Source: Cryobacterium glaciale (GTDB taxonomy: Bacteria > Actinomycetota > Actinomycetes > Actinomycetales > Microbacteriaceae). Taken from it: a stretch of DNA of 64,000 nucleotides. Positions within the stretch are counted from its first letter, which is position 1. Each line of letters begins with the position of its first letter. Under the pieces are notes generated by a model. The model did not search any database, was not told the DNA's origin, and worked only from the letters and a program-made list of their open reading frames with translations. The DNA lies in the NCBI RefSeq assembly GCF_004402535.1, contig NZ_SOEY01000019.1:204447-268446 (forward strand), given 5' to 3'. Shown here one piece after another: positions 6,148-58,870 of the stretch. A program made the position numbers and the translations under genes.

Positions 6148-7584
6148 TCAGTGTCCGATGTAGCTCATCACGTGCTTGATACGGGTGTAATCCTCGAACC
6201 CGTACATCGAGAGGTCTTTGCCGTAGCCGGAGTGTTTGAAACCGCCATGGGGCATCTCGGCAACGATGGGAATGTGCGTGTTGATCCACACACAGCCGAA
6301 GTCGAGGTGCTTAGCGAAGCGCATCGCGCGCCCGTGATCGCGGGTCCACACCGACGACGCCAGGCCGTACTGCACGTCGTTCGCCCAGCGCAGCGCCTCG
6401 GCCTCGTCGGTGAAGCGCTGCACGGTCATCATAGGGCCGAAGATCTCCTGCTGCACCGCCTCGTCGGTCTGCTTCAGGCCGCTGACAATGGTCGCTTCAT
6501 GAAAATATCCTGCGGTGCCAACGCGATGGCCGCCGAGTTCGAGCACGGCGTGGTCGGGCAGCCGGTCGACAAAGCCCGACACCTGGGCGAGCTGGTTAAC
6601 GTTGTTGACCGGTCCGAACAGCATTCCCAGCTCGTTGGGGGCTCCGGTACGGGCGTTGTCCCTGGCATAGGCGGCGAGCGCGGCGACGAATTCGTCGTGG
6701 ATACCGGCCTGCACGAGCAGTCGGGTGGCGGCGGTGCAGTCCTGGCCGGCGTTGAAGAAGCCGGCGGCGACGATCCCGGCGACGGCGAGCTCGATGTCAG
6801 CATCATCGAACACGATCACCGGGGCTTTGCCGCCGAGTTCGAGGTGCACCCGTTTCAGGTCGTGGGACGCGGCCTCGGCGACGGCCATCCCGGCCCGCAC
6901 CGAACCGGTGATCGACACGAGCTGCGGGGTCTTGTGGTCGATCATGGCCGCACCGGTCGTGCGGTCGCCGGTGATCACGTTGAGCACGCCGTTTGGCAGG
7001 AACTCTGCGGCGATCTCGGCGAGCAGCAGGGTCGCGCTCGGGGTCGTGTCAGACGGTTTGAGCACCGTGGTGTTGCCGGCAGCGAGCGCTGGAGCGAACT
7101 TCCAGACCGCCATATTCAGCGGATAGTTCCAGGGGGTGACCTGGCCGACGACACCGATCGGTTCACGCCGAATGAAGGAGGTGTGGTCGGTCAGATACTC
7201 GCCGGCCGCTCGGCCTTCGAGGTTGCGGGCGGCGCCGGCAAAGAAACGAATCTGGTCGACCGACAGTAGAATCTCGTCGTCGACGAGGGTGGAACGCGGT
7301 TTGCCGGTGTCGAGTGACTCGGCGTCGGCGAATTCGTCGGCTCGCGCCTCCATCGCATCCGCTATGCGAAACAACGCGAGTTGCCGCACCGCCGGGGTCG
7401 TCTCACCCCAAATTTCGAAAGCGGATGCGGCAGCACGGTAGGCCGCATCCACGTCGGCCGCATTCGACACCGGACTGCTGCCGTAGACCGTTTCGGTCGC
7501 AGGGTCGATGAGGTCGAAGCGTTCCAACGATGTGGACTCGGCGTAGTGGCCGTTGATGAAGTTACGTAGTTCGGGGGCGCTCAT
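6148..7584 (-). CDS. Aldehyde dehydrogenase, gamma-aminobutyraldehyde dehydrogenase type
   Basis: NAD-dependent aldehyde dehydrogenase of 478 residues. The catalytic cysteine is in [12 protein letters not shown], the general-base glutamate in LELGGKAP and the cofactor site in TPWNYPLN; the C-terminal [20 protein letters not shown] resembles the aminobutyraldehyde/betaine aldehyde group. In polyamine catabolism such enzymes oxidise 4-aminobutanal, formed from putrescine by an aminotransferase, to GABA. The open frame runs to 7731, but the ATG at 7584 gives the normal N-terminus ([14 protein letters not shown]) and keeps the AT-rich divergent promoter free. The divergent Lrp regulator and class III aminotransferase support an omega-amine degradation locus. 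The exact substrate is inferred. Confidence 0.85.
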
Positions 7585-7606
7585 GCGGCCCAGTGTACCT
7601 ATTTCA

Positions 7607-7638
7607 ATTTCATATGCCCCCAAATTCACAAATGAAAT
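7607..7638. promoter_or_regulatory. AT-rich divergent control region with inverted repeat
   Basis: The arms ATTTCAT (7607-7613) and ATGAAAT (7632-7638) form an inverted repeat with an 18-bp spacer inside a strikingly AT-rich 120-bp gap between the divergent aldehyde dehydrogenase and Lrp genes. Placement and composition suit an Lrp/AsnC binding site controlling both directions. This is inference; no experimentally known consensus was matched. Confidence 0.4.
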
Positions 7639-7707
7639 GCGCAGTGATTTGCATAATGTGCGACGGATTCGCTTGCCGAAGTGCATTTGGACTGACAGAA
7701 TCGATGC

Positions 7708-8190
7708 ATGAATGGACAAAGGCGCGGTCACCCGCCCAAGCCGACCCCGCTCGACGATGTATCAAAAAAGATCATCGAACAGCTGCAAGCCGACGGCCGT
7801 CGGTCGTACGCCGAGATCGGCAAAGCCGTCGGTCTGAGCGAGGCGGCCGTGCGCCAGCGGGTGCAGAAGCTCACCGACTCCGGCGTCATGCAGGTCGTCG
7901 CTGTGACGGACCCGATGCAGCTGGGCTTCTTTCGGCAGGCCATGATCGGCATTCGCGCTTCGGCCGACACTCGCGTGCTGGCGGAGCAACTGGCCGCAAT
8001 CGACGCCGTGGATTACGTCGTGCTCACGGCCGGCACTTTTGACATTCTCGCCGAGGTCGTCTGCGAAGACGACGACGAACTGCTCGAACTGCTCAACTCC
8101 AAGATCCGCAATCTCGATGGGGTCCTCTCCACCGAGACGTTCGTTTATCTCAAACTCCACAAACAGTTCTATAACTGGGGAACACGGTAG
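7708..8190 (+). CDS. Lrp/AsnC family transcriptional regulator
   Basis: A 160-residue feast/famine regulator. An N-terminal winged helix-turn-helix (about residues 15-65, with [17 protein letters not shown] and the recognition helix [11 protein letters not shown]) is followed by an RAM/AsnC_trans_reg ligand-binding domain with [14 protein letters not shown]. It is transcribed divergently from the aldehyde dehydrogenase and lies only 4 bp upstream of the class III aminotransferase, so it is very probably the local regulator, sensing an amine or amino acid made or used by these enzymes, and co-transcribed with the aminotransferase. The ligand is not predictable from sequence. Confidence 0.93.
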
Positions 8191-8194
8191 AAAA

Positions 8195-9625
8195 ATGAGT
8201 CTCACCACACCCACCGAAACGCCCATTGCCTACAGCGACGCCCACAACGCCGAACTACAGCAGAAGGCCAAGGATCACCTCTGGATGCACTTCTCCCGTC
8301 AGTCGGTGATGGAATCCGGCGCTGGAGTGCCCATCATCGTCAAGGGCCAAGGCCACCACATCTGGGATTCCAAAGGCAAGCAGTACATCGACGGCCTGAG
8401 CGGCCTGTTCACGGTCAACGCCGGCCACGGACGCAAGCGTCTCGCCGAGGTCGCCGCGAAGCAGGCCGAGGAACTCGCGTTCTTCCCGATCTGGTCGTAT
8501 GCCCACCCCAACGCGATCGAACTCGCCGACCGGCTCGCATCCTATGCTCCCGGTGACCTCAACCGGGTGTTTTATTCCACCGGTGGCGGTGAAGCCGTCG
8601 AGACGGCGTTCAAACTCGCCAAGTACTACTGGAAGCTGATGGGTCGCCCCACCAAGCACAAGGTCATCTCCCGCAACGTCGCCTACCACGGCACCCCGCA
8701 GGGCGCGCTCGCCATCACCGGCATCCCGGCGATGAAGGAGATGTTCGAGCCGGTCACCCCCGGTGGTTTCCGTGTTCCCAATACGAACTTCTATCGTGCC
8801 GACGAGATGAGCCCGGGCCTCGGCCTCGGCGACAACCTCGAAATGTTCGGCCAGTGGGCCGCGAATCGCATCGAAGAGATGATCGAGTTCGAGGGCCCCG
8901 AAACCGTCGCCGCCGTGTTCCTCGAGCCGGTGCAGAACTCCGGCGGCTGCTTCCCGCCGCCCCCCGGCTATTTCAAGCGCGTGCGTGAGATCTGCGACAA
9001 ATACGACGTGCTCCTGGTCGCGGACGAGGTCATCACGGCATTCGGTCGCATCGGAAACATGTTCGCGTCGACAACCTACGACATCCAGCCCGACATGATC
9101 ACCTGCGCCAAGGGCATGACGAGCGGATACTCTCCGATCGGCGCGACCATCGTCAGCGACCGCATCTATGAACCGTTCAAGCACGGCGACACGACGTTCT
9201 ACCACGGCTACACCTTCGGCGGACACCCCGTCTCCTCCGCGGTGGCCCTGGCCAACCTCGACATCTTCGAAGAGGAAACACTCAACGAGAACGTGCGCGA
9301 GAATTCGCCGCTGTTCCGCCAAGAGCTGGAGAAACTCCTCGACCTGCCGATCGTCGGCGACGTGCGCGGCGCCGGGTACTTCTTCGGCATCGAGCTGGTC
9401 AAGGACAAAGGCACCAAGGAAACGTTCAACGACGAGGAGTCGGAGCGGCTGCTGCGCGGCTACCTGTCGAAGGCTCTCTACGAGGCCGGCCTGTACTGCC
9501 GCGCCGACGACCGTGGCGACCCGGTCATTCAGCTCGCTCCCCCCCTGACCATCGGACCGAAGGAGTTCGCCGAGATCGGCGAGATTCTGCACGGCGTGCT
9601 GTCGGAGGCGCCGAAGTACATGTAG
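8195..9625 (+). CDS. Class III PLP-dependent aminotransferase (putrescine/omega-amine type)
   Basis: A 476-residue fold-type I aminotransferase of subgroup III. The PLP lysine is in ITCAKGMTSGYSP and the PLP-phosphate and ring contacts are STGGGEAVETA and VADEVITAFGR. The closest named relatives are the SpuC/putrescine-pyruvate and beta-alanine-pyruvate transaminases, which move an omega-amino group to pyruvate and leave an aldehyde. That aldehyde would be the substrate of the divergent aminobutyraldehyde dehydrogenase. The ATG at 8195 follows the regulator stop by 4 bp, so the two are probably one transcript; the frame is open further upstream, but that part lies inside the regulator gene. 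Substrate assignment is inference from the neighbourhood. Confidence 0.9.
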   Translation: MSLTTPTETPIAYSDAHNAELQQKAKDHLWMHFSRQSVMESGAGVPIIVKGQGHHIWDSKGKQYIDGLSGLFTVNAGHGRKRLAEVAAKQAEELAFFPIWSYAHPNAIELADRLASYAPGDLNRVFYSTGGGEAVETAFKLAKYYWKLMGRPTKHKVISRNVAYHGTPQGALAITGIPAMKEMFEPVTPGGFRVPNTNFYRADEMSPGLGLGDNLEMFGQWAANRIEEMIEFEGPETVAAVFLEPVQNSGGCFPPPPGYFKRVREICDKYDVLLVADEVITAFGRIGNMFASTTYDIQPDMITCAKGMTSGYSPIGATIVSDRIYEPFKHGDTTFYHGYTFGGHPVSSAVALANLDIFEEETLNENVRENSPLFRQELEKLLDLPIVGDVRGAGYFFGIELVKDKGTKETFNDEESERLLRGYLSKALYEAGLYCRADDRGDPVIQLAPPLTIGPKEFAEIGEILHGVLSEAPKYM

Positions 9626-49142: not shown

Positions 49143-50837
49143 ATGAGCACCCCCCACACCGTACGCCCCGTTCGCGCCGCCCGCGGCACCGAACTGACCG
49201 CGAAGAGCTGGCAGACCGAAGGCCCGCTGCGCATGCTCATGAACAACCTCGACCCCGAAGTCGCCGAACGCCCCGACGACCTCGTCGTCTACGGCGGCAC
49301 CGGCAAGGCCGCCCGCAATTGGGAATGCTACGACGCGATCGTGCGCACCCTCGAAACCCTGGAGAAAGACGAAACTCTGCTCGTGCAGTCGGGCAAACCG
49401 GTCGGCGTCTTCCGCACCCACGAATGGGCCCCGCGCGTGCTCATCGCCAACTCCAACCTCGTCGGCGACTGGGCCACCTGGCCCGAGTTCCGCCGCCTCG
49501 AGCACCTCGGACTCACCATGTACGGGCAGATGACCGCCGGATCGTGGATTTACATCGGCACCCAGGGCATTCTGCAGGGCACCTATGAGACCTTCGGCGC
49601 CGTCGCAACGAAAATCGCCGCCCGCAAGGGCGGGCACGATAGGCCCAGTGAGGGAACCCTGGCCGGCACGCTCACGCTGACCGGCGGTGCCGGCGGCATG
49701 GGCGGCGCGCAGCCGCTCGCCGTCACGATGAATGACGGCGTCGTGCTCATCGTCGACGTCGACCCGGCCCGGCTGCAACGCCGGGTCGACCACGGCTACC
49801 TTGACGAGATGACCGACGACATCGACGATGCCATCGCACGAGTGCTCGCGGCCAAGGCTGAACGTCGTGCCTTGTCGGTCGGCCTGGTCGGCAACGCCGC
49901 GACCGTGTTCGCCGAGTTGCTGGCGCGCAAGGTGCCGATCGACATCGTCACCGACCAGACCAGCGCGCACGATCCGCTGTCCTACCTGCCTGAGGGCGTC
50001 ACCGTGGAAGAATGGCACAGCTACGCGGCCGCGAACCCCGAAGAATTCACCGTGCGCGCCCGCGCCGCGATGGCCAAACAGGTGCAGGCCATGGTCGAAT
50101 TTCAGGACGCCGGCGCCGAAGTCTTCGACTACGGCAACTCCATTCGCGCCGAGGCACAACTCGGCGGCTACGAGCGGGCCTTCGAGTTTCCCGGGTTTGT
50201 GCCCGCTTACATTCGACCGCTCTTCGCCGAGGGCAAGGGCCCGTTCCGCTGGGTCGCGCTGTCCGGCAACCCAGCAGACATCCTGGCCACCGACAAAGCC
50301 ATTCTCGAATTGTTTCCGAACGATGCCGGGCTGCACCGCTGGATCACCAAGGCCGAAGAGAAGGTGCAGTTCGAAGGACTGCCGGCACGCATCTGCTGGC
50401 TCGGCTACAAGGAACGTCACCTCGCCGGGCTGAGGTTCAACGAGATGGTCGCCTCCGGCGAGCTCAGCGCGCCGATCGTGATCGGCCGCGACCACCTCGA
50501 CTCCGGCTCGGTCGCCTCGCCCTATCGCGAGACCGAGGATATGAAAGACGGCTCAGATGCGATCGCCGACTGGCCACTGCTGAACGCCCTGCTGAACACC
50601 GCCTCGGGCGCGACCTGGGTGTCGATTCACCACGGTGGCGGTGTCGGTATCGGCCGCAGCATCCATGCCGGGCAGGTCATCGTCGCCGACGGTACCCCAC
50701 TGGCCGCCGAGAAAATCGAGCGTGTACTGACCAACGACCCCGGTACCGGCGTCATGCGTCACGTGGATGCGGGCTATGAACGGGCCGACGAAGTAGCCCG
50801 CGAACGCGGACTGCGCGTACCCATGTGGGAAGTGTGA
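49143..50837 (+). CDS. hutU: Urocanate hydratase
   Basis: Second step of histidine degradation, urocanate to imidazolone propionate, with tightly bound NAD+. The product is 564 residues. Conserved parts are [41 protein letters not shown] (NAD site), the C-terminal [19 protein letters not shown] and [21 protein letters not shown] ribosome-binding site precedes the ATG. It is the first enzyme gene of the hut operon here; no histidine ammonia-lyase gene (hutH) precedes it. Confidence 0.98.
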
Positions 50838-50838
50838 G

Positions 50839-52161
50839 GTGTCGGCCGGGTTCTGGTGCGAATCCCTGCTGATCGACGGGATCGCCGTCGCTGGGGTGCG
50901 GCTCGAGGTCGACCCGGCCGGTCGCATCACGCGCGTTCAGCCTGAAGCGGCGAAGGCTGCGGACATCCGTTTGGGAACGGTTATGCCCGGGTTCGGCAAT
51001 GCCCATTCACATGCTTTTCATCGGGCCTTGCGCGGCCAGACCCACGGTGACGGCGGCGATTTCTGGCTATGGCGCGAGCGGATGTACCGGGTCGCCGCCC
51101 AGCTCGACCCCGGCAAGTATCAGGCGCTGGCTACGGCGGTGTTCGCCGAGATGCTCGTGAGCGGGTATACGGCCGTCGGCGAGTTCCACTACGTGCATCA
51201 CCGCCGTGACGGCGCACCCTATGAACCCGGGCACGCCATGGAATTGGCGATCGCGGCGGCGGCGCGCGCCGTCGGCATCCGTTTGGTGCTGCTCGACACG
51301 GTGTATTTGCAGGGCGGAATCGGTCGGGAGCTGGCGCCGGAGCAGCTCGCGTTCGGCGACGGCAGCGCCGCTGCCTGGCTGGCCCGGTGGATGTCGCTGC
51401 GCGCGCGGCTTGACGGCGACGGTCTCGTGACTCTCGGGGCGGCACTGCACTCGGTGCGGGCCGTCACACCCGACGCGATGCGGGAGGTGCAGGGCGGGCT
51501 GCCGCCGGAGGTTCCCCTGCACATTCACCTCTCCGAGCAGTCGCAGGAGAACGCCGATTGCCTCGCGGCCTACGGCCTGACCCCGACCGGCCTGCTCGAT
51601 TCGCTCGGGGCGCTCGCGCCGCGACTGAGCGTCGTGCACGCGACGCATCTCAGCGACGCCGACCGGGCCCGGCTCGGTGACGCCGCGGTGACCGTGGTGA
51701 TGTGTCCCACCACCGAGGCCGACCTCGGCGACGGCATCGGCCCGGCGCTCGCCCTCGCTGCGGCGGGGTCGCCGATTGCGCTCGGTTCCGATCAGAACGC
51801 GGTCATCGACCCATTCCTGGAGATGCGCGGCCTCGAAATGGGTGAACGGCTCGCCTCACAGAAGCGCGGATGTTTCGCCCCGGCCGCGCTCCTGGCCGCC
51901 GCGTCGACCGCCGGCTATGCCTCCCTCGGGCTCGGCCGTCATCGGCTGCAACCGGGCGACCCGTGCGACCTCGTCGAGATCAGCACGACCGGGGTGCGCA
52001 CGGTCGGCTCCCTCGCTGGGCAGCTTCCGCTGACCGCGACGGCCTCCGATGTGCTGCGCGTTTTCGTGGGCGGGCGGCTGGTGGCCGAGGGTGGCCAGCT
52101 GGTCGGCGGCGAGCGGCCGGCAGCGCTGATGACCGAGGCGCTCGCTAGGCTCAGCAGATGA
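50839..52161 (+). CDS. hutF: Formimidoylglutamate deiminase
   Basis: Zinc amidohydrolase that removes ammonia from N-formimidoyl-L-glutamate to give N-formylglutamate, the route used instead of HutG formiminoglutamase. The product is 440 residues. Metal-site motifs are FGNAHSHAFHR, PLHIHLSEQ and VVHATHLSD, with a late GSDQNAVIDPF. The GTG start is 1 bp after the hutU stop. This pathway then needs N-formylglutamate deformylase (HutG), which is not encoded in the window. Confidence 0.95.
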   Translation: MSAGFWCESLLIDGIAVAGVRLEVDPAGRITRVQPEAAKAADIRLGTVMPGFGNAHSHAFHRALRGQTHGDGGDFWLWRERMYRVAAQLDPGKYQALATAVFAEMLVSGYTAVGEFHYVHHRRDGAPYEPGHAMELAIAAAARAVGIRLVLLDTVYLQGGIGRELAPEQLAFGDGSAAAWLARWMSLRARLDGDGLVTLGAALHSVRAVTPDAMREVQGGLPPEVPLHIHLSEQSQENADCLAAYGLTPTGLLDSLGALAPRLSVVHATHLSDADRARLGDAAVTVVMCPTTEADLGDGIGPALALAAAGSPIALGSDQNAVIDPFLEMRGLEMGERLASQKRGCFAPAALLAAASTAGYASLGLGRHRLQPGDPCDLVEISTTGVRTVGSLAGQLPLTATASDVLRVFVGGRLVAEGGQLVGGERPAALMTEALARLSR

Positions 52162-53339
52162 CGACGACCGAACTGACCGGTACTGAGCTGGTGACGGGCA
52201 TCGGTGAGCTCACCACCCACGATGAATCGGGCGAACGGCGCCGCGACGCCGCCCTCGTGATCGGCGCTGGTCGCATCCTTTGGATCGGCTCCGCCGCGAA
52301 GGCTCCCGCAGCCGATCGTCAAACGGATGTCGACGGTCGCGCCGTTCTGCCCGGCTGGGTCGACACGCACACCCACCTCGTGTTCGGCGGGGATCGTTCC
52401 GCGGAGTTTGAAGCCCGCATGAATGGTCAGGCCTATGCCGCGGGCGGCATCACCACGACGGTCGACGCCACGCGGGCCGCGACCGAGGAACAGCTCGTCG
52501 CTACGGCACGGCGTCTGCGCCACGAGGCCGAAGCGCAGGGCACCACCTTTCTCGAAACGAAGACCGGATACGGGCTCGATGTCGCGAGCGAAACACGCTC
52601 GGCGCGCGCTGCCGCCCAGGTGGCCGATGTGGTGACCTTTCTCGGCGCCCACATCGTGCCGGCCGGGATGGATCGTCGCGACTACCTCGACCTAGTGACC
52701 GGGCCGATGCTCACTGCCGTGCGACCCTACGTGCAGTTCATCGACGCGTTCTGCGAACTGGGCGCGTTTGACGTGGAGGAAACCCGGGAGGTGCTGTTGG
52801 CCGGCCGCGCCGCCGGCCTGGGACTGCGCGTGCACGGCAATCAGCTCGGATTCAGCGGCGGCGTGCAACTCGCGGCCGAGCTGGGCGCCGCGAGCGTCGA
52901 CCACTGCAACTTCCTCGAGCCCGCCGACATCGACGCGCTGGCCGCCGGAACGACGGTTGCCACCCTACTGCCGGCCTGCGACCTGTCGACCCGGCAGCCG
53001 TTTGCGCCGGCCCGGCAGTTGCTCGATGCCGGAGTGACCATCGCCCTGGCGACCAACTGCAACCCGGGAACCTCGTACACCACGTCGATGCCGTTTTGCG
53101 TGGCGACCGCCGTACTGCAGATGGGCCTGACCGTCGGCGAAGCCGTCTGGGCGGCCACGCGCGGTGCGGCCCGGTCGCTCGGCCGCGACCAGGGAGCGGA
53201 TGCCGTCGGCTCCCTGCAGGTCGGCGGCCGCGCCAACCTGCAGGTTCTGAACGCTCCGTCGATTTCACACTTGGCCTACCGCCCCGGGGTACCCCTGACC
53301 GATGCCGTCTGGCGAGAGGGTGTGCGCGTTGGGCACTGA
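52158..53339 (+). CDS. hutI: Imidazolonepropionase
   Basis: Zinc/iron amidohydrolase that opens imidazolone propionate to N-formimidoylglutamate, 393 residues. Metal motif DTHTHLVFGGDR, substrate loop YAAGGITTTVDATR, KTGYGLD, and later VHGNQLGFSGG and NCNPGTSYT. The ATG overlaps the hutF stop by 4 bp, so hutU, hutF and hutI are translationally linked. The order of enzymes is U, F, I rather than pathway order. Confidence 0.97.
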   Translation: MTTTELTGTELVTGIGELTTHDESGERRRDAALVIGAGRILWIGSAAKAPAADRQTDVDGRAVLPGWVDTHTHLVFGGDRSAEFEARMNGQAYAAGGITTTVDATRAATEEQLVATARRLRHEAEAQGTTFLETKTGYGLDVASETRSARAAAQVADVVTFLGAHIVPAGMDRRDYLDLVTGPMLTAVRPYVQFIDAFCELGAFDVEETREVLLAGRAAGLGLRVHGNQLGFSGGVQLAAELGAASVDHCNFLEPADIDALAAGTTVATLLPACDLSTRQPFAPARQLLDAGVTIALATNCNPGTSYTTSMPFCVATAVLQMGLTVGEAVWAATRGAARSLGRDQGADAVGSLQVGGRANLQVLNAPSISHLAYRPGVPLTDAVWREGVRVGH

Positions 53340-53886
53340 CATATTGTGGGCGGCCCATCGGGTCGACGTGCCCTGGCGCAACGGCGCCGGCGTGACGAGC
53401 GAGATTCTGGTGTCGCCGGCGGTCGGCGATTTCGACTGGCGGCTCAGCATCGCGACCGTTGATTCCACGGCACCGTTCTCGACCTTTGCCGGCGTCGACC
53501 GGTGCCTGCTCGCGCTTTCGGAGCAGGGGCTCGACCTAATCGACCAGGGCCGACTGGTGCGCCTCGGCGAATTCGAGTCCCACAGTTTTGCCGGCGAGAA
53601 CGAGGTCGCATCGGCAAACGTCGCCCGGCCGACCCTCGACCTGAACCTGATGACCCGACGCGGTCGGTGCAGCGGCACAATCGAATCACACCGGGTGGCC
53701 GACACCTGGTCGATCACCGCCAGGGCCGGGGAGATCGTCGTCGTGGTGATCGCGCGCGGCCTGTTCTCGCTCGGCGCCCAGCCCCTGGCGGTGCTCGACG
53801 CGGTTCGGCTCGACGCGAACCTCGACGCCCTGACCCTGACCGGTATCGGCGAACTCGCTGTCGCCCACATATCCCCGGCAGTCTGA
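53329..53886 (+). CDS. hutD: HutD family cupin-like protein
   Basis: About 185 residues of the HutD/Ves family, a beta-barrel (cupin) fold. Recognised by VPWRNGAGVTSEI near the N-terminus and the FDWRLSIATVD strand. In Pseudomonas HutD is thought to bind formylglutamate or urocanate and limit hut expression; the biochemical role is not settled. Its start lies inside hutI: TTG at 53329 has a GAGAGGG site 8 bp upstream, while a GTG at 53320 would add three residues with no ribosome-binding site. Last gene of the hut operon, 35 bp before ptrB. Confidence 0.88.
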   Translation: MGTDILWAAHRVDVPWRNGAGVTSEILVSPAVGDFDWRLSIATVDSTAPFSTFAGVDRCLLALSEQGLDLIDQGRLVRLGEFESHSFAGENEVASANVARPTLDLNLMTRRGRCSGTIESHRVADTWSITARAGEIVVVVIARGLFSLGAQPLAVLDAVRLDANLDALTLTGIGELAVAHISPAV

Positions 53887-56050: not shown

Positions 56051-57268
56051 TTAGCCGTCCCACCGCCACAACGCCGCGACCCCCAGTCCGCCGGCGATGC
56101 TCACGGCGGCGAGGGAGAGCTCCCCCGCCGAGCCGGATGCCCGGCCCTGCTTCAGAAGCCGCAGCACGAGCAGGGCGCCGCTCGCGCCGAAGGGGTGCCC
56201 GAGCGCCAGCGCCCCGCCCTGGAGATTGGCGCGCTCCTCCGGGATGCCGAGGATGTCCATCGAGGCGAGCACCTGGGCCGCGAAGGCCTCGTTGAACTCG
56301 ATCCGCGCCAGGTCAGCCGCCGCGAAGCCCTGCCGGTCGAGCACCAGCCGGGCGGCCTCGGCGCCGGCGACGCCGAGGTGGTTCGGGTCCGTGCCCATCA
56401 CGGCCGAATCGACGAAGCGCAGATAGCCGGTGAGGCCGAGGCTCTCGGCGACCCGTCGACTGGTGACCAGCACGACGACGGCGCCGTCCGCATCGGCGCA
56501 GGAGTTGCCCGCGGTGACGGTACCGCCGGGCCGGAAGACGGGCGGAAAGCGGCGCAGCAGGCCGTCGGTGAGCGAGCGCCGGGGACCCTCGTCAGTCGCG
56601 ACCCGGCCGGTCTCCGTGTGCAGCGGCACGATCTCGCCGGCCAGGGCGCCGGTGTCCTGGGCGACGACGGCCAGCCGGTGGCTGCGCAGCGCGAACGCGT
56701 CCTGGCGCTCCCGGGTGATGCCGAACCGCTCGGCCACGTTCTCGGCCGCGACGCCCATGTCGGGGTCGCCGACCGCGTCGGGCGAGAAGCGCACCCGGTC
56801 GAAGAAGTCCGGATGCCCCGGAGTCGAGGTCAGCCGGTGCGCGCGGAGCGGCGCGGTGCTGCAGCTCTCCACTCCCCCGGCCAGGTAGGCACTGCCGGCC
56901 CCGGCGGCGACGAGCCGGCAGGCCAGCACGATGGCCTCGAGTCCGGAGCCGCACTGCCGGTCGATCGTCAGGCCGGGCACGCGGTTGGGCAGCCCCGCCC
57001 CGAGGGCGGCCAGTCGGGCCACGTTTCCGCCGCCGCCCACCGCGTTGCCGATGATCACGTCGTCGATGTGGTCCACGGGAACTCCGCTGTCGGCCACCAC
57101 GGCGGAGAGCACGGGTGCGAGCAGCTCGTCGGCGAGCAGCCGTCCGAAAACGCCGTTCCGGCGTCCGAACGCGGTGCGGCGGCCGAGCACGATCACCGGC
57201 TCCCGGTCGGCGCTGTCGTGGACGCCGGCGGAGAGGCCGGCGGGGGCGCTATCCCAGGTGTCGGACAC
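56051..57268 (-). CDS. Thiolase family protein with Ser in place of the second catalytic Cys
   Basis: A 405-residue thiolase. The nucleophilic Cys106 is in DRQCGSGLE, Asn/Glu in NEAF (326-329) and His358 in ALGHPFGASG. The acid/base cysteine normally found in a C-I-G-G-G motif near the C-terminus is replaced: the corresponding stretch is VSIAGGLG with Ser390. Without that Cys the enzyme may not run the normal reversible thiolase reaction and may be a condensing or transfer enzyme instead. It starts with GTG and overlaps the adenylate-forming ligase gene by 20 bp, so ligase and thiolase are co-translated and probably share an acyl substrate. Converges on ptrB. Confidence 0.85.
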   Translation of the reverse strand: MSDTWDSAPAGLSAGVHDSADREPVIVLGRRTAFGRRNGVFGRLLADELLAPVLSAVVADSGVPVDHIDDVIIGNAVGGGGNVARLAALGAGLPNRVPGLTIDRQCGSGLEAIVLACRLVAAGAGSAYLAGGVESCSTAPLRAHRLTSTPGHPDFFDRVRFSPDAVGDPDMGVAAENVAERFGITRERQDAFALRSHRLAVVAQDTGALAGEIVPLHTETGRVATDEGPRRSLTDGLLRRFPPVFRPGGTVTAGNSCADADGAVVVLVTSRRVAESLGLTGYLRFVDSAVMGTDPNHLGVAGAEAARLVLDRQGFAAADLARIEFNEAFAAQVLASMDILGIPEERANLQGGALALGHPFGASGALLVLRLLKQGRASGSAGELSLAAVSIAGGLGVAALWRWDG

Positions 57269-58688
57269 GGTCGTCCCCTGCCAGGATCCACTGGCTGAGC
57301 AGTCGGCGGCTGATCTTGCCGGTCGCGGTCACGGGCGCTTCGGCCAGGGCGAACCACGCGCGGGGGCGTTTGGGCCCGGCGAGCAGGGTCGCGCTGGCCG
57401 ACCGGAGGCTGGCGGCATCCGCTTCGCCGCTGCCGATCACGGCGGCCACGAGCCGGGTTCCCCGGTGCGGGTCCGGCAGGCCGGTGACGATGATGGTGCG
57501 CACGCCGGGGACGTCCTGCATCGCCACCTCCACCTCGTGCGGGTACACGTTGTGGCCGGAGGTGATGATCATGTCGGCGCGGCGGCCCTGGTGGTGCAGC
57601 ACGGCATCCGCGTCGAGGAAACCCTCGTCGCCGACGGTGCACCAGTCACCGTCGCGGCGGAAGGCCTCCCCGTCGTCTCCCCAGGCATACCCGTCGCTGA
57701 CCAGCGGGCTGCGCACGAAGATGGCGCCGGGGACCCCCGCGGGCTGCTCGTGGCCGTCCGGATCGAGGATACGGATGTCGACGCCGGGCAGGGCGCGGCC
57801 GACGGCGGTCGCCGAGCGCCCCGGCGCCTCCGACGTGTCTCCGGGGCGGAGGGCCGCGGCCGTGACGTAGCTGAGCTCGGCGGCACCGTAGTACTCGTAC
57901 ACGGTCGCGTTGGGCGCCCAGCGACGCACCAGCGCCAGTGTGACGGCGTCGAGTTTGGCGCCGGCGCTGACGATCCCGGACAGCGCTGTTCCGTCGGCGC
58001 CGGAGGCCAGGCCGCGCTCGCTGATCAGGCGCAGGGCGGCCGGAGCCGACACGATCCGCGTGATCCTTCTCTCGGTGACGCAGGCGATGGCCGCGCCGAC
58101 GTCGAAGCTCGGCAGCGCGAAGAAGGCGGCGCCGGCGTGCAAGGATTCGGCGAGGGCGAAGAGGGAGAGGCTGGCCGAGAGCGGGCCGGGGACCAGCGTG
58201 CGATCGGCTCGGGTCAGGCCGAAGAACCCGGTGCTGTGGTCGAAGGAGTACTGCCAAGACCGCCTGACCCTGGTGAACGCCTTGGGCAGCGAGGTGGTGC
58301 CGGAGGTGAAGCCGAGCAGGAAGACGGAGTCGGCCGGACCGTCGACGAACTCGGCGCCGGTCTCACCGCGCGAACCGCGGGTCGACCCTGCGATCACCCC
58401 GCCCGGGACGTATCCACGCAGGCGTTCCTCAACGGCCGAGCGCTGCGCATCCGGCCACCCGGGGTCCAGCACGGCGCACACGCCGCTGCCGGCCACGGCG
58501 GCCGCGAAGGCGACGGCGAACTCGATCCCGTTGGGCAGGCAGAGCGCGGTGAGCGCAGGCTCGACACCGACCTGGGAGGCCGCCCGGTCCCGCAGCTCGG
58601 CGAAACTGAGGCGATCCGCGCCCACCTCGACCGCCGTCGCTTGAGGCTGCACCTGGGCCCAGTGCTGAAGCCGATTCACAAATGGCAT
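57249..58688 (-). CDS. Class I adenylate-forming enzyme (acyl-CoA ligase type)
   Basis: ATP-dependent acid activation enzyme of the ANL superfamily, 479 residues. Core motifs in order: P-loop LGFTSGTTSLPK (near 150), YYGAAEL (near 270), TVGDEGFLD, GRRADMIITSGHNVYPHEVE hinge region and the C-terminal lysine in TATGKISRR. The start is the ATG at 58688 (MPFVNRLQHWAQ); a GTG at 58757 would add 23 residues without family likeness. Together with the overlapping thiolase it could activate and then condense or shorten a carboxylic acid. No acyl-CoA dehydrogenase, hydratase or carrier protein is beside them, so the pathway is unknown. Confidence 0.87.
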   Translation of the reverse strand: MPFVNRLQHWAQVQPQATAVEVGADRLSFAELRDRAASQVGVEPALTALCLPNGIEFAVAFAAAVAGSGVCAVLDPGWPDAQRSAVEERLRGYVPGGVIAGSTRGSRGETGAEFVDGPADSVFLLGFTSGTTSLPKAFTRVRRSWQYSFDHSTGFFGLTRADRTLVPGPLSASLSLFALAESLHAGAAFFALPSFDVGAAIACVTERRITRIVSAPAALRLISERGLASGADGTALSGIVSAGAKLDAVTLALVRRWAPNATVYEYYGAAELSYVTAAALRPGDTSEAPGRSATAVGRALPGVDIRILDPDGHEQPAGVPGAIFVRSPLVSDGYAWGDDGEAFRRDGDWCTVGDEGFLDADAVLHHQGRRADMIITSGHNVYPHEVEVAMQDVPGVRTIIVTGLPDPHRGTRLVAAVIGSGEADAASLRSASATLLAGPKRPRAWFALAEAPVTATGKISRRLLSQWILAGDDRVRHLG

Positions 58689-58870
58689 GGGACCGCTACC
58701 AGCGCGCGATGATTTCGCGGCGCGGTTTCCGGGCGTGGGGGCGAGTCGGTCATGCACCGAGCCTACGTCCCGAAGCCTGCGCAGGGGGCACGGAACTATG
58801 GCCTGGAGAATCATGGGGCAGTTCGAACCTTCAGTCTCTTCGCGGTGCACCAGCGTGAGAATATAGGGGA

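Follow-up and report, generated by a model that had tools for sequence, protein, structure and literature searches.

An acyl-CoA ligase gene and a thiolase gene of Cryobacterium glaciale (contig NZ_SOEY01000019.1; the stretch analysed, of 64,000 nucleotides, is called here the window) belong to a clade that extends across phyla and whose members otherwise lie with bioY, bioM and bioN, while the pair of the window stands apart from bioY. This pair is distantly related to YhfT/YhfS, the acyl-CoA ligase and thiolase found in the BirA biotin regulon of Bacillus and Staphylococcus. Taken alone, its membership in the clade together with a link to biotin supply is in our view highly probable; this link is strong for the clade and indirect for the window. 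Clearly more tentative is the best explanation as a whole, a biotin-supply module in which the ligase would activate an acid and the thiolase-fold protein would transfer the acyl group without condensation. In the comparisons, L numbers designate loci and G numbers genomes examined. The features of the pair, all on the minus strand and with the codons read directly, are the following:

57249-58688, minus strand: adenylate-forming acyl-CoA ligase, YhfT/PRK07638-like, 479 amino acids, ATG start
56051-57268, minus strand: thiolase-fold protein without the second catalytic Cys, YhfS/PRK06690-like, 405 amino acids, GTG start
57249-57268, minus strand: overlap of the ligase 3' end and the thiolase start, 20 bp
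56951-56953, minus strand: thiolase Cys106, the nucleophile, codon TGC
56498-56500, minus strand: thiolase Cys257, codon TGC
56291-56293, minus strand: thiolase Asn326 of the NEAF motif, codon AAC
56195-56197, minus strand: thiolase His358 (the GHP His), codon CAC
56099-56101, minus strand: thiolase Ser390 at the site of the second catalytic Cys, codon AGC

The Glu of NEAF is also retained. The initial annotation had described these residues (Cys106, the NEAF Asn and Glu, His358, Ser390) and the 20-bp overlap correctly. The overlap suggests that both genes are translationally coupled, and short overlaps from usable start codons are found as well in the distant loci L083 (4 bases), L101 and L111 (20 bases each) and L137 (8 bases).

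Linkage of the clade to bioY

Named genomes were scanned with an alignment of 13 actinobacterial thiolases, and the best 80 of at least 577 confirmed stretches were analysed, with bioY, bioM and bioN assigned by tblastn using proteins from the phylum of the window. Fifty-eight of these 80 loci belong to the clade and 22 fall outside. In this survey of neighbours in relatives, which the initial annotation had proposed, bioY was present at 51 of the 58 clade loci (any of bioY, bioM and bioN at 52) and at 0 of the 22 outside, a count that alone is not independent because the list of the 22 had been drawn by hand from the residue columns before bioY was counted; the tree built without that list puts all 22 outside the clade. 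A Pfam check of ten proteins labelled bioY, bioM or bioN, from three genomes of the phylum and the C. glaciale genome, gave BioY, ABC ATPase or CbiQ-type domains. Six clade loci have none of the three genes; five of them were tested and BioY is encoded elsewhere in the genome, and the sixth (L140) is a 3-kb contig.

The clade includes Actinobacteria, Bacilli, Alphaproteobacteria, a cyanobacterium and Marinimicrobia. In many Actinobacteria (e.g. Agromyces, Rhodococcus, Nocardia and Streptosporangium) bioY, ligase, thiolase, bioM and bioN form one row. The order is bioM-bioN-bioY-ligase-thiolase in Shinella and bioY-ligase-thiolase in Bacilli, a Marinimicrobia bin has a similar gene set and Leptolyngbya part of it. 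In Arthrobacter the ligase-thiolase pair faces bioN-bioM-bioY, and in G059 it faces bioYMN in the same way. In five further genomes (G281, G324, G108, G334 and G044) bioY, thiolase and bioM also form a single row; the ligase follows bioN in G334, and in the other four it is placed between bioY and thiolase.

The Rhodococcus and Nocardia loci L085-L092 and L143 contain two PRK07638-like ligases per bioYMN row, of which the short one (~370-380 amino acids) precedes the thiolase and the longer one follows bioN; the ligase motifs are present in both, except that the second ligase of L090 is cut before the C-terminal Lys. At L132, from [Actinomadura] parvosata, ligase and thiolase share one open frame (6576-9005) with a later frame-shift in the thiolase, possibly a sequencing error. 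Fusions of bioY, ligase and thiolase were considered as a guide to function and not used, since this was the only ligase-thiolase fusion and its thiolase is frame-shifted.

We also surveyed 6 kb on each side of 57 bio-linked loci, viewing the top 25 neighbour clusters and naming the unlabelled ones by eye. The recurrent families were of the bioY, bioM and bioN types, ligases and thiolases, antisense open frames, an ABC ATPase family and a short-chain dehydrogenase/reductase (SDR) family; SUF-like genes appeared only at Arthrobacter-type loci. No beta-oxidation family was found among these 25 clusters, dehydrogenases and hydratases not having been searched specifically, and the most recurrent neighbours did not place the pair inside fatty-acid degradation loci. 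No lipid gene was prominent among them either, but the SDR family is FabG-like in appearance. SDRs are a common family.

A maximum-likelihood tree of 90 thiolases (L099, L107, L132 and L140 were left out as fragmentary or frame-shifted) separates 63 rows, all bio-linked and including the window thiolase, from the others by a branch with support 100/99 that was recovered in 200/200 bootstrap trees; the window, eight relatives and the named loci L098, L114, L131, L148 and L154, which have no bioY in view, were labelled bio-linked by hand. Within the tree the window thiolase groups with Micrococcaceae and not with the Agromyces/Leifsonia form of its probable own family (a placement deduced from the 79% identity of the same-family genome G324 to Agromyces soli), which suggests a transfer between lineages.

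A profile search, also proposed in the initial annotation, gave as best NCBIfam equivalogs PRK06690 for the thiolase (364.5 bits, the next equivalog at 267.5 and the broad subfamily model TIGR01930 at 355.6) and, for the ligase, PRK07638 (226.1 bits); neither score reaches the curated cut-off. These models probably represent the YhfS and YhfT families. Among the Bacilli of the clade, the bioY-linked thiolase of Bacillus badius (L137) passes PRK06690 (550 vs 498) and the bioY-linked ligase of Gracilibacillus (L146) passes PRK07638 (591 vs 518). The Pfam scores of the window proteins exceed all cut-offs (Thiolase_N and Thiolase_C for the thiolase, AMP-binding and AMP-binding_C for the ligase). 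The five adenylation motifs checked in the ligase are intact, namely the P-loop TSGTT..PK, YGAAE, GD, GR and the C-terminal Lys (A3, A5, A7, A8 and A10).

The second catalytic cysteine and the other thiolase residues

At the column of the second catalytic Cys the 58 clade loci have 16 Ser, 18 Ala (the one of L132 read from a frame-shifted stretch and unreliable), 22 Gly and two gaps (L099 and L107), so that Cys is present in none of the 56 that can be read, against 22 of 22 outside the clade. It is also kept by the five other thiolases examined in the C. glaciale genome, from ten further Thiolase_N matches. Thus neither the 22 outside loci nor these five offered a degradative thiolase with the same Ser. 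All the readable close relatives of the window thiolase do have it (14/14, from 15 relatives in 59 other genomes, the frame-shifted L040 being the unreadable one), indicating that Ser390 has not arisen by chance. The Ser reported in the initial annotation is therefore real, but it is not in itself a trait of the family, in which Ala or Gly are found elsewhere: the trait of the clade is "not Cys" rather than "Ser". In the tree, Ser and Ala are found only in actinobacterial rows, and Gly in those of Bacilli, Alphaproteobacteria, the cyanobacterium and Marinimicrobia, plus the actinobacterial L098 and L142. From this distribution the loss of the Cys looks old and Ser appears as one later state.

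A second sample, 30 loci obtained by searching 396 genomes of the phylum with PRK06690, agrees with the scan of named genomes. Five loci lack the second Cys (C. glaciale itself, G041, G281, G108 and G324; the last three are bioY-linked), 20 have it, three are cut short and two are gapped; for L051, one of these two, a separate reading gives Cys. L073, with a ligase-like gene nearby (23% identity), keeps the second Cys.

The other catalytic residues behave differently. The nucleophile Cys is present in 80/80 named loci and the GHP His in 79/80, the exception being the frame-shifted L132. The NEAF Asn column of 57 pair-labelled loci, which include L157 and L162 (outside the clade and with the second Cys kept), has 38 Asn, 12 Thr, 6 Val and one gap. 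In thiolase condensation the second Cys acts as the base that accepts the proton, and Asn316 and His348 contribute to holding the enolate, according to passages of PMC3406046. With Cys and His kept, the base lost everywhere and the Asn drifting, the clade most likely retained the formation of the acyl-enzyme and gave up condensation. A change of Cys378 to Ser in a thiolase reportedly alters the partitioning of the acetyl-enzyme, to go by the title of one study.

Two residues were considered as replacements of the lost base. Ser390 was rejected, as Ala or Gly stand at that site in 40 of the 56 readable clade loci. Cys257 might be a relocated second Cys; its counts are inflated, because the search patterns spared the second-Cys column and one of them contained Cys257, and it is missing from several members. 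Cys stands at neither site in four Streptosporangiaceae loci (L094, L095, L097 and L100). The equivalent position in the five other C. glaciale thiolases is Ser in four and Ala in one.

The predicted fold of the window thiolase has a mean pLDDT (predicted local distance difference test) of 93.9, and its top structural match is 1ulq, with a template modelling (TM) score of 0.89. The 50 PDB matches listed (the best 50 of 1170) were all thiolases and gave no functional lead. Since this confident model resembles classical thiolases, binding of CoA is plausible.

The pair in Cryobacterium

The C. glaciale genome encodes BirA and BioY, and BioY was found in all 36 relatives of the same genus. Of BioA, BioB, BioD and BioF only BioB (biotin synthase) was searched; it was not recognised in C. 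glaciale, whose best match scored 34.3 bits vs a cut-off of 225, or in any of the 13 relatives of the genus that carry the pair. The pair and BioB show no correlation within the genus, since 34 of the 36 relatives are without BioB; the two genomes that have it both lack the pair. Outside the genus, pair-bearing G041 has BioB and G059 does not, and across the clade BioB was recognised in 25 of the 38 genomes tested (from 58 loci) and not in 13, a figure to be read without information on genome completeness. A scan for BioQ boxes gave none upstream of the window pair at three mismatches; the region upstream of the C. glaciale bioY also gave only three-mismatch matches, and matches with 2-3 mismatches occur in some relatives.

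In 11 of the 13 pair-bearing relatives of the genus an S-adenosylmethionine (SAM) methyltransferase gene directly precedes the ligase (identified by Pfam in one relative, to which the other ten are 65-81% identical). In the window only a remnant is left:

58681-58753, minus strand: SAM methyltransferase remnant, match to the gene of the relatives

It consists of the first 13 codons, 90% identical over 39 bases, and after them a weaker match to the gene end (46 bases, 78% identity, E 0.002 in a tiny search). Most likely the methyltransferase gene underwent an internal deletion that brought the former start of the operon next to the ligase.

By eye, from the translations, the flanks of the pair are a prolyl-oligopeptidase-like gene on one side and a SNF2-type helicase on the other. 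The same reading found no beta-oxidation gene among the immediate neighbours, in accordance with the absence of such partners noted in the initial annotation. On the side of the prolyl-oligopeptidase-like gene the window also contains a histidine-utilisation cluster (49143-53886) with HutU-, HutF-, HutI- and HutD-like genes, named by eye.

Candidate role and known systems

When biotin is scarce, the ligase would adenylate a carboxylic acid tied to biotin supply (biotin or an imported vitamer) and make its CoA thioester. We favour a biotin compound as the acid because the importer is the constant neighbour. The thiolase-fold protein would then accept the acyl group on Cys106, aided by His358, and pass it to a non-carbon acceptor by acyl transfer or hydrolysis; condensation is not expected because the base for carbanion formation is gone. 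In this way biotin compounds imported by BioY could be salvaged, trapped or remodelled. The initial annotation had proposed a small activation and condensation pathway different from fatty-acid degradation, possibly for a cofactor side chain or a signal. The cofactor connection survives in the tie to biotin, but a part in making the side chain de novo is unlikely in this genome, in which BioB was not recognised, and the condensation is not supported: the residues of the carbon-carbon step are lost (the second Cys everywhere, the NEAF Asn in some) and acyl transfer fits better. The broader idea that a thiolase subfamily in at least five phyla has left carbon-carbon chemistry, and that the resulting acyl transferase forms with its ligase an unrecognised route for salvage, trapping or remodelling of biotin or vitamers in importing cells, is possible but somewhat more doubtful than the role just described.

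Several observations weigh against this role. The window pair is separated from bioY, the bioYMN row of C. glaciale being on contig 14 and without the pair, and bioYMN was near the pair at 0 of 13 loci of the genus within the 14-16 kb examined. Only 13 of the 36 relatives carry the pair (E below 1e-140; G016 and G035 have weaker ligase matches), though all 36 have BioY, and in two of the 13 the thiolase is damaged or misread (without the NEAF segment in G027, L031 8613-9662; frame-shifted in G031, L040 5826-6982), so that the pair is dispensable and accessory. Both window proteins are under the curated equivalog cut-offs (364.5 vs 498 for PRK06690 and 226.1 vs 518 for PRK07638). Among six clade thiolases tested only L137 exceeded the former, with L108, L148, L123, L105 and L094 below it, and the L108 ligase was below the latter (thiolase and ligase of L108 scored 427 and 474; the L108 and L123 thiolases were scored as cut stretches). 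The raw PRK06690 score alone does not separate the clade, since the outsiders L112 and L136 score 348 and 330 on it, although several other models give each of them a higher score. At 14 of the 57 loci (e.g. L152 15068-15931) a member of the SDR family is located no more than 6 kb from the thiolase, so that redox partners may take part. The B. subtilis yhfT is described, in the source passages on the Bacillus genes, as involved in surfactin production, pointing to ordinary fatty acids. Finally, acyl transfer is deduced from the loss of residues only.

The main rival, which we consider unlikely, is a rescue of lipid synthesis during biotin shortage. Lack of biotin stalls acetyl-CoA carboxylase and with it fatty-acid synthesis; the ligase would activate fatty acids, either free or exogenous, and its thiolase-fold partner would pass on the acyl group, to a carrier for instance, allowing lipids to be made without malonyl-CoA. 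Regulation of the pair together with biotin uptake would suit this role, as would the surfactin connection of yhfT and the fact that CoA ligases for fatty acids or similar acids make up most of the nearest ligase models and solved structures. For S. aureus, it has been proposed that a limited supply of biotin interferes with fatty-acid synthesis, and membrane fluidity was changed. Against it, bioY itself accompanies the genes across phyla, and the recurrent neighbours include no prominent lipid gene, but the FabG-like appearance of the SDR family at 14 of 57 loci has to be kept in mind.

Salvage of the biotin side chain, with bisnorbiotin or tetranorbiotin activated, lengthened by two carbons with acetyl-CoA and finished by general enzymes, is less probable again. 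It would explain a ligase and a thiolase beside a biotin importer, including in genomes without a recognised biotin synthase, Cys257 might stand in for the lost base in most members (a biased count), and the SDR family keeps an extension of the side chain possible. Yet the condensation base is absent in 56/56 readable clade loci, 18 of the 57 pair-labelled loci have Val or Thr instead of the NEAF Asn, and the four Streptosporangiaceae loci lack Cys at both sites.

An ordinary or decaying thiolase and ligase of fatty-acid degradation is very improbable. The intact thiolase fold, the damaged or misread copies in two relatives and the methyltransferase lost in the window could be read in this way, but the clade as a whole is without the second Cys and yet conserves Cys106 and His358 in its different phyla, which argues for an old and stable change rather than decay, and beta-oxidation neighbours were not seen next to the window pair or among the 25 neighbour clusters. 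Least probable of all is a de novo supply of pimelate for biotin synthesis: the Bacillus pair is in the biotin regulon and the origin of pimelic acid there is called unknown in a passage of PMC11089781, but BioB was not recognised in C. glaciale, in 13/13 pair-bearing relatives of the genus or in 13 of 38 other clade genomes, and in C. glaciale an unknown enzyme for sulphur insertion would be required.

Most of biotin metabolism is regarded as mapped, yet a module of two genes with only putative names travels with the importer in several phyla. If the proposed transfer in biotin supply is correct, there would be an extra step in vitamin acquisition, also in biotin auxotrophs, and acetyl-CoA C-acyltransferase, the name of the family model, would be misleading. 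The residue pattern leads to a clear, testable claim, a thiolase fold that works without the condensation base. The membership of the pair in the biotin regulon of Firmicutes is already known. In the open-access literature, supplements excluded, we recognised no account of the function of the pair or of the missing Cys, which does not prove their absence, and found no description of the linkage to bioY across phyla, of the occurrence without a recognised biotin synthase or of the clade-wide absence of the Cys.

The biotin regulon was reportedly described early on by Rodionov in 2002. The closest known systems are yhfS-yhfT of S. aureus (PMC7235819) and yhfT and yhfS of B. subtilis (PMC6323116; review PMC11089781), placed in the BirA regulon in passages of these papers. 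They share with the window pair the two enzyme types and the link to biotin uptake, and the window thiolase is in the same clade as the bioY-linked members from Bacillaceae and Staphylococcaceae, which also lack the second catalytic Cys. In contrast to YhfT-YhfS, the window pair is under the curated equivalog cut-offs, is separated from bioY, has a host without a recognised biotin synthase, and has relatives in which a SAM methyltransferase precedes the ligase. Classical thiolases (the Zoogloea ramigera biosynthetic thiolase, FadA and BktB) have the same fold, nucleophile Cys, GHP His and NEAF Glu; unlike them, the clade of the window is without the second catalytic Cys (Cys378 of Zoogloea) and its NEAF Asn is not fixed. 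BioW and BioZ presumably belong to families different from those of the window pair, and the C. glaciale genome, without a recognised biotin synthase, has no evident de novo route. The resemblance lies in the activation of an acid (BioW) or the use of a thiolase-superfamily enzyme (BioZ) in the metabolism of biotin, as outlined in part of PMC11089781. TLP1 of Mycobacterium smegmatis is likewise a thiolase-family protein with altered catalytic residues, but according to passages on thiolases in PMC3406046 it has lost the nucleophile Cys itself, whereas the window thiolase keeps Cys106.

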